From a virus: a stretch of DNA of 32,092 nt. Position 1 is the first letter of the stretch. The number at the start of each line of letters is the position of its first letter. The DNA is taken from positions 1 through 32,092 of IMG/VR virus record IMGVR_UViG_3300042465_003391; one strand, given 5' to 3'. Below the pieces are notes generated by a model, which did not search any database, was not told where the DNA came from, and worked only from the letters and a program-made list of their open reading frames with translations. This document shows, piece after piece, positions 584-7,263 of this stretch. The translations under genes were made by a program, and so were the position numbers.

Positions 584-1302
584 AGTCTATCTTGTTGTTT
601 AGGTTTTGATTTTTTAATATCCTGTGAATACTTTTGCATTTTTTCGGATCGGCTTATAAATTCCAATGTTAAGAAATGCGGATTGTCTTTATGAAAGTCA
701 TCATTAAAACAATTTGTAATAGCATTAACTAAATCTTGTTTAGTATATCCTTCTTTCAATCTTGCTGTAACTTGTTTTTTTGTTTTAGGACAAACTACAC
801 GCATCTTCTTTCCTGTTATGGAATTAAATTGTAAAAGAAGCGCATCCCAATTAACCGATAGGTTATTATCTTTATTTATTACATTAACATTAACATTTAC
901 ATTATCATTTACAGCGAGTTTCGCGATAGGTGGCGATAGTGGACTATCGCCTTGCGACACTTTGCGAGATTTAGCGAGATTTTCAGCTTGTTCTAAAGTT
1001 ATTTTATTAGACAAAACATCGTTATAAATATCTAAATTATAACGTTTTAAATTACCCATTTTGCCGTTAATTGATTTAGATTCTTTACTACCTTCCCATT
1101 TTAATAAATCTCTTTTTAATTGCATTTTTATAGGTTCAAATGCAATATTTAAAAGTAATTCGTCACTAATTGGGTTTTCATCATTTACATAAGCGTAAAT
1201 ATGTTTAAGTAAACGACCTGCAATTTCATCAGGTAATTGATTAACTAAACCTTGAGAGTCTGAATATAAAACAAATGATTTTTTATCTTGCGCCATTTTC
1301 AT
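580..1302 (-). CDS. Phage replication initiator-like protein (O/DnaD-like organisation)
   Basis: The 240-aa protein has three parts. Residues 1-110 are a helical N-terminal domain resembling the DUF6291-type domain of phage replication proteins. Residues 115-150 are a low-complexity linker with a VNVNVNV run. Residues 155-225 look like the conserved phage C-terminal domain of the TIGR02220 type, with motifs such as FNSITGKK and FLTLEFI. Such proteins bind the phage origin and recruit the helicase. The linker DNA holds GCGA repeats, a perfect hairpin and an AT-rich tandem repeat, as in the lambda O gene. The gene overlaps the 77-aa gene upstream by 20 bases and the next gene downstream by 4. 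Residue 3 is an alternative Met start. Confidence 0.75.
   Translation of the reverse strand: MKMAQDKKSFVLYSDSQGLVNQLPDEIAGRLLKHIYAYVNDENPISDELLLNIAFEPIKMQLKRDLLKWEGSKESKSINGKMGNLKRYNLDIYNDVLSNKITLEQAENLAKSRKVSQGDSPLSPPIAKLAVNDNVNVNVNVINKDNNLSVNWDALLLQFNSITGKKMRVVCPKTKKQVTARLKEGYTKQDLVNAITNCFNDDFHKDNPHFLTLEFISRSEKMQKYSQDIKKSKPKQQDRL
877..980. other. Candidate replication origin inside the initiator gene
   Basis: Bases 877-912 are tandem 6-bp AT-rich units (ATTAAC, ATTAAC, ATTTAC, ATTATC, ATTTAC). Bases 911-980 are unusually GC-rich for this genome and carry GCGA about every 10 bases: 914, 923, 933, 954, 964 and 974. They also carry a perfect 8-bp inverted repeat, GGCGATAG (932-939) and CTATCGCC (944-951), around a 4-base loop. 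Bases 951-980 read as three near-identical decamers. Lambda keeps its iterons and AT-rich region in the middle of gene O, and this block falls at the matching interdomain linker. That it is the origin is an inference. Confidence 0.55.
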
Positions 1303-3957: not shown

Positions 3958-4081
3958 AAATTTCTATTATTTGTTGATTTGTAAAATATTGTCCGTGATA
4001 TAAAAACCCGTCTTTAACTTTAACCAAGTTCGGTTCTGTATCAATCCATTCTATTAATTCAGCTATTTTATTTGTTTCCAT
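3941..4081 (-). CDS. Short hypothetical protein, 46 aa, overlapping both neighbours
   Basis: A 46-aa frame starts at ATG 4081 and stops at TAG 3941. It overlaps the gene upstream by 14 bases and the MazG-like gene downstream by 17 bases. The product begins with METNKIAELIEW, has acidic and aromatic residues, and contains no Cys or membrane segment. Without this frame, about 110 bases would be empty in an otherwise gapless operon, and its ends fit the neighbours closely. The family is not recognised. Confidence 0.6.
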   Translation of the reverse strand: METNKIAELIEWIDTEPNLVKVKDGFLYHGQYFTNQQIIEIYVKRG

Positions 4082-4427
4082 TGTTTTTAAGTTTTTGTAA
4101 GTATAAAATCGCATCCATTAACTCCTCTTGTAAGTGATTTAAAAAGTCGTCGGTGTTATTTTCGTGTAAAGTTGTACCGTACTTCTTAATTCCTATTTTA
4201 GAGCGTTCTTTGAACTTATTTAATACTTGGTTCACTACTTTGTCTTTTTTCTGTTTTGGCTCGAAATGCTCTTTAAAATCATCATCATAATCAATCATAT
4301 AATGTTTTTCATTATTCTCATTTTTTAAACAAGTAAAATCATTATCAAATTCATAAATAACACCTTTTTTAAATGCAATTCTTTCGTCATCCATTACATA
4401 ATTTTTTTTACAAATATATTTTTTCAT
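4068..4427 (-). CDS. Phage protein with MazG-like C-terminal helical region
   Basis: The 119-aa protein has two parts. Residues 1-55 form a small beta-rich domain, with MKKYICKKNYV and EFDNDFTCLKN, of the kind that often appears alone in phages. Residues 60-116 hold a motif common in phage dNTP pyrophosphohydrolase-like proteins: a basic FKERSKIGIKKYG, an acidic stretch, then HLQEELMDAILYLQKL. The EELMDA segment resembles the metal-binding helix of the MazG fold. With the 121-aa gene just downstream it gives two MazG-like products in one operon. The catalytic set looks minimal, so activity is uncertain. Its start overlaps the previous stop by 4 bases. Confidence 0.7.
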   Translation of the reverse strand: MKKYICKKNYVMDDERIAFKKGVIYEFDNDFTCLKNENNEKHYMIDYDDDFKEHFEPKQKKDKVVNQVLNKFKERSKIGIKKYGTTLHENNTDDFLNHLQEELMDAILYLQKLKNNGNK

Positions 4428-6768: not shown

Positions 6769-6930
6769 TTAAAAAAAATCTTCCCATACAAAATAACCTA
6801 ACCTCATTAATTGTTCAATACATCTACTATACTCACTATGATCTTCTGTAAAATTTGATGGAACTTTGCCAGTTTCCCACATATTATATAATTTTCTTTG
6901 AGCTTGTTTTTTTGTCATTTTATTTTCCAT
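6769..6930 (-). CDS. Short hypothetical protein, 53 aa, next to the helix-turn-helix gene
   Basis: ATG at 6930 opens a 53-aa frame that stops at 6769. It overlaps the end of the HTH gene by 11 bases. The product starts MENKMTKKQAQRKLYNMWE, is helical and basic at first, then acidic, and ends in aromatic FVWEDFF. No known domain is visible. It lies just before the early promoter in the control island, so it may act with the HTH protein as a regulator. That is inference from position. Confidence 0.6.
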   Translation of the reverse strand: MENKMTKKQAQRKLYNMWETGKVPSNFTEDHSEYSRCIEQLMRLGYFVWEDFF

Positions 6931-7087
6931 AATACTGCTTTTTTATTTTTTCAAAAGTTGAAAGTTTCATCTCATAAAGGTCGGTTAAATACGGATTAAG
7001 ATTCTGTTTTTTAATTCCGCACTTTCGGGAAAACTCGGCTTTTGTTAAGCCTGATTTTAAAAATAGTTCTTTTAGTTTTTTATTCAT
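6920..7087 (-). CDS. Small Cro-like helix-turn-helix protein, 55 aa
   Basis: The 55-aa product is almost only a helix-turn-helix. It begins MNKKLKELFLKSG, then LTKAEFSRKCGI (scaffold helix and turn) and KKQNLNPYLTDLYEM (recognition helix), then a closing helix with LSTFEKIKK. This is the Xre/Cro pattern. It is short for the family, so it may bind DNA as a dimer like Cro. The gene lies 22 bases after the tRNA and under the same promoter, and about 165 bases before the early promoter, which is a natural target. No CI-type repressor or integrase accompanies it. Confidence 0.75.
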   Translation of the reverse strand: MNKKLKELFLKSGLTKAEFSRKCGIKKQNLNPYLTDLYEMKLSTFEKIKKQYYGK

Positions 7088-7109
7088 AGCATTTGTTTTT
7101 AATTATTAG

Positions 7110-7222
7110 TAGTCAAGGCAGGATTCGAACCTGCAAACTATGTTACTGTGGTTCACTAAGATTACCCACATATTCACATAACATTATTGTCTTAAGCGTG
7201 TCTACCATTCCACCACCTGACT
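7110..7222 (-). tRNA. Type-II tRNA, Leu-like, with abnormal central region; anticodon not assignable
   Basis: The acceptor stem AGTCAGG/CTTGACT (7 bp, one G-U) is followed by TG, a D arm of GTG-GAATGGTAGA-CAC that is typical of leucine tRNAs, and a canonical T arm GCAGG-TTCGAAT-CCTGC with A as discriminator. CCA is not encoded. Between D arm and T arm are 62 bases where a type-II tRNA normally has 31-37, and no clean 5-bp/7-base anticodon arm can be drawn. Instead 10 bp (with one bulge) pair ATGTTATGTG with CACAGTAACAT. It may contain an inserted segment or be a tRNA-like RNA. A promoter lies about 13 bases upstream. Confidence 0.65.
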
Positions 7223-7234
7223 ATTTTATAAATG

Positions 7235-7263
7235 CAAATATAAGTAATTAAATTTAATTACAC
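7235..7263 (-). promoter_or_regulatory. Promoter for the tRNA and helix-turn-helix gene
   Basis: On the minus strand TATATTTG (7235-7242) matches the -7 element exactly. GTG at 7261-7263 stands in for the -33 TTG after an 18-base spacer. The start of transcription would fall only a few bases before the 5' end of the tRNA. It lies directly behind the late terminator. Confidence 0.55.

Follow-up and report, generated by a model that had tools for sequence, protein, structure and literature searches.

Introduction

The usual explanations for tRNAs in phages are codon supply and the replacement of cut host tRNAs, and the anticodon loop is the usual target of tRNA-cutting defences. Phage tRNAs defeat retron and PrrC defences (PMC11555353), and the phage-encoded tRNAs that act against tRNA-targeting defences are proposed to work by decoding, either as a fresh supply or with a changed anticodon loop (PMC11555353; eLife 85183, PMC10264068). 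The Cas12a3 nuclease grips the acceptor, the T arm and CCA (PMC12851939). A further relevant system is the engineered tRNA scaffold, outlined in PMC3753655 (refs 12 and 19 therein), in which the acceptor, T and D arms are kept, the anticodon stem-loop is exchanged for a foreign structured RNA and the product is stable in bacteria.

The window (the whole stretch of DNA analysed, 32,092 nucleotides), an IMG/VR phage contig of 32 kb, has HK97-type genes for capsid, portal and terminase. It also encodes a RecE-like exonuclease and a DNA methyltransferase, and its promoters are of Bacteroidota type; the window proteins that were scanned showed no integrase. Directly downstream of its endolysin gene lies an element that keeps the ends of a tRNA and has no anticodon arm. 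Like the counter-defence tRNAs of phages, the family of this element consists of accessory genes, is found in tRNA-rich regions of phages and has a plausible anti-defence role, but those tRNAs are proposed to decode and the family lacks the arm with which to do so. With tmRNA the element shares tRNA-like ends, the absence of a normal anticodon arm and a structured insert. Its layout is that of the engineered scaffold as outlined in PMC3753655, except that the scaffold is synthetic and the phage family is natural, with about 122 different inserts. No description of this family was found in the openly licensed full-text literature; one may exist in preprints or subscription journals. A family of tRNA-framed, non-decoding phage RNAs with swappable centres appears to be undescribed.

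The Element at 7110-7222

The element is read on the minus strand from 7222 to 7110. A sequence-only reading of this DNA had given the correct coordinates, leaving the strand unstated. The parts of its frame are as follows.

7110..7222, minus strand: tRNA-framed, non-decoding RNA of 113 nt including A73 (RF00005 38 bits; its homologues are six other distinct elements)
7216..7222, minus strand: acceptor stem 5' strand AGTCAGG, partner 7111-7117 (AGTCAGG, the anchor of the search, is present in 130 of the 142 members of the family)
7198..7213, minus strand: D arm GTG-GAATGGTAGA-CAC of tRNA-Leu type (sequence and cmscan alignment)
7118..7134, minus strand: T arm GCAGG-TTCGAAT-CCTGC (sequence; the stem is compensatorily changed to ACAGG/CCTGT in relatives)
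7110..7117, minus strand: acceptor 3' strand CTTGACT and discriminator A73, with C74 next at 7109 (A73 in 126 and C74 in 137 of 142 members)

The acceptor stem AGTCAGG/CTTGACT has 7 bp, one of them G-U, followed by A73, and the D stem GTG/CAC closes the D loop GAATGGTAGA. Of the features of a canonical tRNA, the acceptor, D and T arms, the T-loop TTCRANT and A73/C74 are present, and a 5-bp anticodon stem with a 7-nt loop bearing U33 and purine 37 is absent. The tRNA-like arms proposed from the letters alone were borne out by sensitive cmscan of the region, in which the tRNA model RF00005 scored 38.0 bits (E 1.5e-6, gathering cut-off 29) and left 53 central bases unmatched (53-63 central bases fall outside the model). 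A leucine-like character had also been noted, and the D arm is of tRNA-Leu type. The centre is enlarged as had been claimed, although 63 nt, and not 62, separate the D stem from the T stem. A standard anticodon arm is indeed absent; ARAGORN reported 0 tRNA and 0 tmRNA on the whole window. The element was missed by fast cmscan over the full window, and no Rfam family but tRNA was found for its region. Folded alone and unconstrained, the window copy is thermodynamically unremarkable (z -1.0), so that the structural case for it comes from comparison with relatives and not from single-sequence folding. We rejected tmRNA, since neither ARAGORN nor Rfam found one and 113 nt leaves no room for a tag reading frame or a ring of pseudoknots.

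The Frame in Other Phages

The frame AGTCAGG–TGGYGGAAT…ACAGG–TTCRANT–CCTGT–CCTGACT–A–C was found in more than 100 viral contigs of IMG/VR, with about 122 distinct centres. The 16-mer RGTCAGGTGGYGGAAT occurred in at least 120 IMG/VR stretches, whereas a control 16-mer of equal length, taken from another frame (acceptor GAGTAGA), gave 10 matches, 8 of them by chance; a second multi-cargo frame with that acceptor was accordingly not seen. Once pairing of the T arm and of the acceptor 3' strand was imposed, 142 distinct centres at 107 loci were retained among the matches listed. The search was anchored at the 5' end, the 3' end being limited by pairing and the T-loop pattern alone, and this 3' end is almost constant (n = 142): the T stem is ACAGG in 103 and GCAGG in 22, the acceptor strand is CCTGACT in 116, and A73 and C74 are found in 126 and 137. 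Some frames bear other D arms with the acceptor and T arm unchanged.

The centres are 22-140 nt long (median 55) and fall into 12 clusters and 110 singletons. A canonical anticodon arm was recognised in 1 of the 142, compared with 1.5% of shuffled centres and 752 of 931 ordinary tRNAs from the same loci. Their mean thermodynamic z is modest, at -0.71. An interchangeable structured insert stands on a tRNA frame, in place of the anticodon arm, across the family. No single motif unites the 122 centre types, which have subfamily motifs only, and one common function is therefore not required.

Among the matches listed, a phage contig holds up to 9-11 frames, on one strand. In one case (G033/L320) they lie among 27 ARAGORN-called tRNAs, normal tRNA-Leu genes included, and in three others (L321, L322, L324) ordinary tRNAs are few or lacking (two or none). 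Annotation tools overlook the elements or assign them nonsense anticodons, and tRNA was the only Rfam family found in the window, in L314 and at ten further loci. A stricter frame pattern gave five matches in the genomes of 84,980 bacterial and archaeal species, all in MAGs; four lie on contigs shorter than 8 kb and the fifth lies close to one end of a contig of 45 kb. Most have 2 or 3 copies, a pattern suggesting that phage sequence was binned with these genomes. When isolated phages were searched for the frame, the sole match was in two pieces and unannotated, in the uncultivated MW202828.

Two subfamilies were observed. L108 and L293 have a long covarying anticodon-like stem (ATCAAATTAG/CTAATTTGAT versus ATGTATGTTGG/CCAACAACAT) and share a GCAGCAGTTTTxxxACTG variable arm. 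The largest cluster of centres has six members (L207, L216, L226, L230, L271 and L303), with a covarying helix CATACAAC/GTTGTATG and the conserved segments GAGAGTTCTGCGGGCTC and GTGGTATAAAT.

A Conserved Core in the Centre

The centre of the window element contains a core composed of the following parts.

7182..7193, minus strand: conserved linker AAGACAATAATG (AAGAMAATAATG in 7/7 members by alignment; also within a second, different element of L313)
7176..7181, minus strand: outer helix 5' strand TTATGT, partner ACATAG at 7138-7143 (compensatory changes in relatives)
7138..7143, minus strand: outer helix 3' strand ACATAG, pairing with TTATGT at 7176..7181
7147..7170, minus strand: inner hairpin TGTGG-GTAATCTTAGTGAA-CCACA (the 22-nt GTGGGTAATCTTAGTGAACCAC is invariant across members; pairing probability 0.79-1.0)

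Pattern scans located this core in six further distinct phage elements, L029, L070, L316, L312, L313 and L314 (L315 and L317 are the same as L029, and L318 is identical to the window element). In the five members with the same frame (window, L029, L070, L316, L312), 34 core positions are identical: relative to the window, the other four have 0 changes in these positions, 4-6 in the 50-nt frame and 1-8 in the remaining centre. In L313 and L314 the core is carried on an unlike acceptor stem, GAGTAGA/TCTACTC, and an unlike T stem, TAGAG/CTCTA, and their T loop departs from the TTCRANT pattern, yet the 22-nt hairpin is retained, and so is the linker with one C/A difference. The diverged L314 was missed by RF00005; its promoter is sigma-70-like, which hints at a host outside Bacteroidota. 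A core conserved while its frame varies, and common to different acceptors, is probably functional.

In L322 the window-type core and a different core are adjacent. A covariance model found no significant distant homologues of the core among the other centres, the second L313 element reaching E 0.06. That element (945-1070, plus strand; acceptor GAACGGG/CCTGTTC) has the linker TGAAGAAAATAATGTG as in the window type and a different hairpin. Isolated phages gave zero core matches, and L319 was dropped as a chance match within coding sequence. Mimicry of a host RNA was rejected as well: in 296 genomes of one bacterial phylum there was no full match to the core, only short ones at chance level. 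An antisense action on rRNA was also rejected: the longest stretch able to pair with the 16S, 23S or 5S rRNA of E. coli was no better than in shuffles.

The 10-bp stem with one bulge that had been drawn for the centre (ATGTTATGTG/CACA-g-TAACAT) can form in the window, but L070, L312, L313 and L314 favour another arrangement, with an outer helix TTATGT/ACATAG and an inner TGTGG/CCACA closing a 14-nt loop. The outer helix reads TTATGT/ACATAG in the window, TGTGT/ACACA in L312 and TGTCCT/AGGACG in L313 and L314, so that 4 of its 6 pairs show compensatory change in a register that depends on a manually inserted one-base gap in L313/L314. This covariation stands on about three independent sequence states, and on an automatic alignment of the window-type members covariation measures were no higher than in shuffles; the helix is therefore supported mainly by independent folds. 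Folded without constraints, L312, L313 and L314 all took the same tRNA-like form, the frame plus a single long hairpin, and the window copy and L070 took it when the frame was imposed. The weak CTTAAG/CTTAG pairing noticed earlier turns into a candidate pseudoknot in the loop, TAAGA:TCTTA. Of its five pairs, four form in 7/7 members and never vary, which is neutral, neither for nor against it.

Promoter and Genomic Setting

The element is flanked by two further features.

7235..7242, minus strand: Bacteroidota-type -7 promoter box TATATTTG, its end 12 nt before the element (TAnnTTTG consensus)
6920..7087, minus strand: 55-aa HTH-like ORF, 22 nt downstream of the element (PHROG transcriptional regulators, weak, E 9e-5)

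A promoter of its own a few bases upstream had been suggested, and the box agrees with this by consensus. In the family, TAnnTTTG is present within 60 nt upstream of 20 of the 142 members, where 4.0 would be expected and none of 200 shuffles exceeded 10, and 10 of these 20 boxes end 3-5 nt ahead of the element. A match of the promoter region to Muminvirus phages covered AT-rich promoter DNA only, 17% of the query.

For a local comparison, the neighbouring endolysin gene was used as query and returned 48 related loci. In many of them the same promoter abuts the HTH ORF with nothing between, and the element is thus an accessory insertion or has been lost repeatedly. The HTH-like ORF and the element are probably on the same transcript; as relatives carry the ORF with no element ahead of it, the association is probably incidental.

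Mini tRNA-likes of about 46 nt were observed at the same genomic place, before the HTH ORF, in L130 (11032-11076), L131 (11030-11075) and L151 (11084-11128). They consist of an acceptor, a 3-bp D arm with a GG loop and a T arm, with no centre or anticodon arm, and their T-stem changes preserve pairing.

Proposed Role and Alternatives

We consider it somewhat favoured, with a probability of roughly 0.55, that the window element is a small RNA on a tRNA scaffold that does not decode and that works through its insert, acting on a host factor. A tRNA-like RNA with another role was among the earlier suggestions, and it is supported by the family-wide data, in which canonical anticodon arms are at chance level and the frame and the window-type core are conserved. 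The transcription, processing, partner and role of the element we infer as follows. Host RNase P and RNase Z with CCA addition would mature the transcript by way of the acceptor, D and T arms into a stable RNA; the retention of A73 (126/142) and C74 (137/142) is suggestive of such maturation in vivo. The constant frame would be what tRNA maturation enzymes and tRNA-binding proteins recognise, and the variable part would stand where the codon reader was. This replaced anticodon/variable region, here the linker AAGACAATAATG and the two-step hairpin with its 14-nt loop, would bind the host factor. The layout in common with engineered scaffolds likewise leads us to think of the phage RNA as matured like a tRNA and acting through its insert. 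Since the elements are accessory, hypervariable and often multi-copy, and need no particular phage neighbour gene, the partner is most likely a host component. Host takeover or counter-defence would be the likeliest role, counter-defence by analogy with the phage tRNAs by which retrons and PrrC are overcome and from the patchy, multi-copy, hypervariable pattern.

The main rival to action through the insert is a decoy formed by the frame, in which an abundant tRNA-shaped RNA would titrate a host enzyme that works on the ends of tRNAs while the centre drifts or merely blocks decoding. CCA-tail nucleases (such as Cas12a3), tRNA-modifying toxins and LeuRS, which does not read the anticodon, are candidate targets. 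The acceptor and T arm are indeed the most constant parts of the family, even with other D arms, and L130, L131 and L151 have minimal forms without an anticodon arm at the same place. Free drift, however, gives neither a core conserved beyond its frame nor one shared by different acceptors, and several clusters of centres recur across contigs; we regard this decoy as unlikely. The element may be a decoy against tRNA-cutting defences, as proposed from the sequence; in that case the frame or the insert would be the active part, because the anticodon loop is missing.

If the tRNA-like part were instead the place where the HTH gene's 5' UTR is cleaved, it would set mRNA ends or levels. In the window the promoter, the element and the HTH ORF follow directly on one another, and the mini tRNA-likes precede a homologous HTH ORF, but most relatives have the same promoter and ORF without the element, and the same core is found elsewhere in tRNA arrays or ahead of unrelated ORFs, which makes this leader quite improbable. 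A functionless remnant, decayed or mobile, of a phage-captured tRNA-Leu gene whose anticodon region was lost or overwritten is disfavoured as very improbable. It would account for the D arm of bacterial tRNA-Leu type, the hypervariable centres and the copies without a matching 3' half; it would not account for acceptor, D and T arms, A73 and C74 kept in more than 100 contigs while the centres are random, for a core invariant across frames or for promoters placed 3-5 nt ahead. An intron-bearing tRNA, also among the earlier suggestions, is not supported. An ordinary tRNA with an intron excised by an unfamiliar mechanism would fit the perfect ends and a TTAAG/CTTAG pairing able to close a 30-nt loop, but is highly implausible, as no way of making a 7-nt loop out of the two ends of the 30-nt segment supplies U33, canonical arms are no commoner than chance across the family and the 22-140 nt centres have no common boundaries. 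Self-splicing was rejected, the insert of about 23 nt being far too short and no Rfam intron family being found in the window or region, and so was functional replacement of a cut host tRNA, as an RNA with no anticodon arm does not decode.

To return to the scaffolded RNA with a working insert, we would put somewhat short of even odds on its extension to a modular, hypervariable arsenal, in which phages would place interchangeable RNA effector domains on a constant, host-matured tRNA chassis, several per phage, each directed at a different host or defence component. Widespread tRNA look-alikes unable to decode suggest that part of the phage "tRNA" content is something else. If true, the family would be a natural counterpart of biotechnology's tRNA scaffold and would offer about 120 ready-made structured RNA domains to screen.

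Other RNA Elements in the Compared Loci

A separate family of odd-centred tRNA frames, GTGACCG-TGAGCGAATTGGCAGAGCTC...GACTAGGCNATNNGCCGTCYTT-GGAGG...CGGTCACACCA with CCA encoded, was seen in the control loci L053, L086, L099 and L113 and had 0 matches in isolated phages. Downstream of a 65-aa gene, the relatives L125, L127, L129, L134, L137 and L151 have a recurring intergenic hairpin, GGATT-(GTGG/GAGG/AGGG)-TGT-(CCAC/CCTT/TCCT)-GGTCG, with an apparently covarying stem; the window has none. In L162, which is related to the window phage, ordinary tRNAs for Pro, Gln, His, Leu and Arg, five in all, lie at 3963-4363, just 3' of the same endolysin gene.
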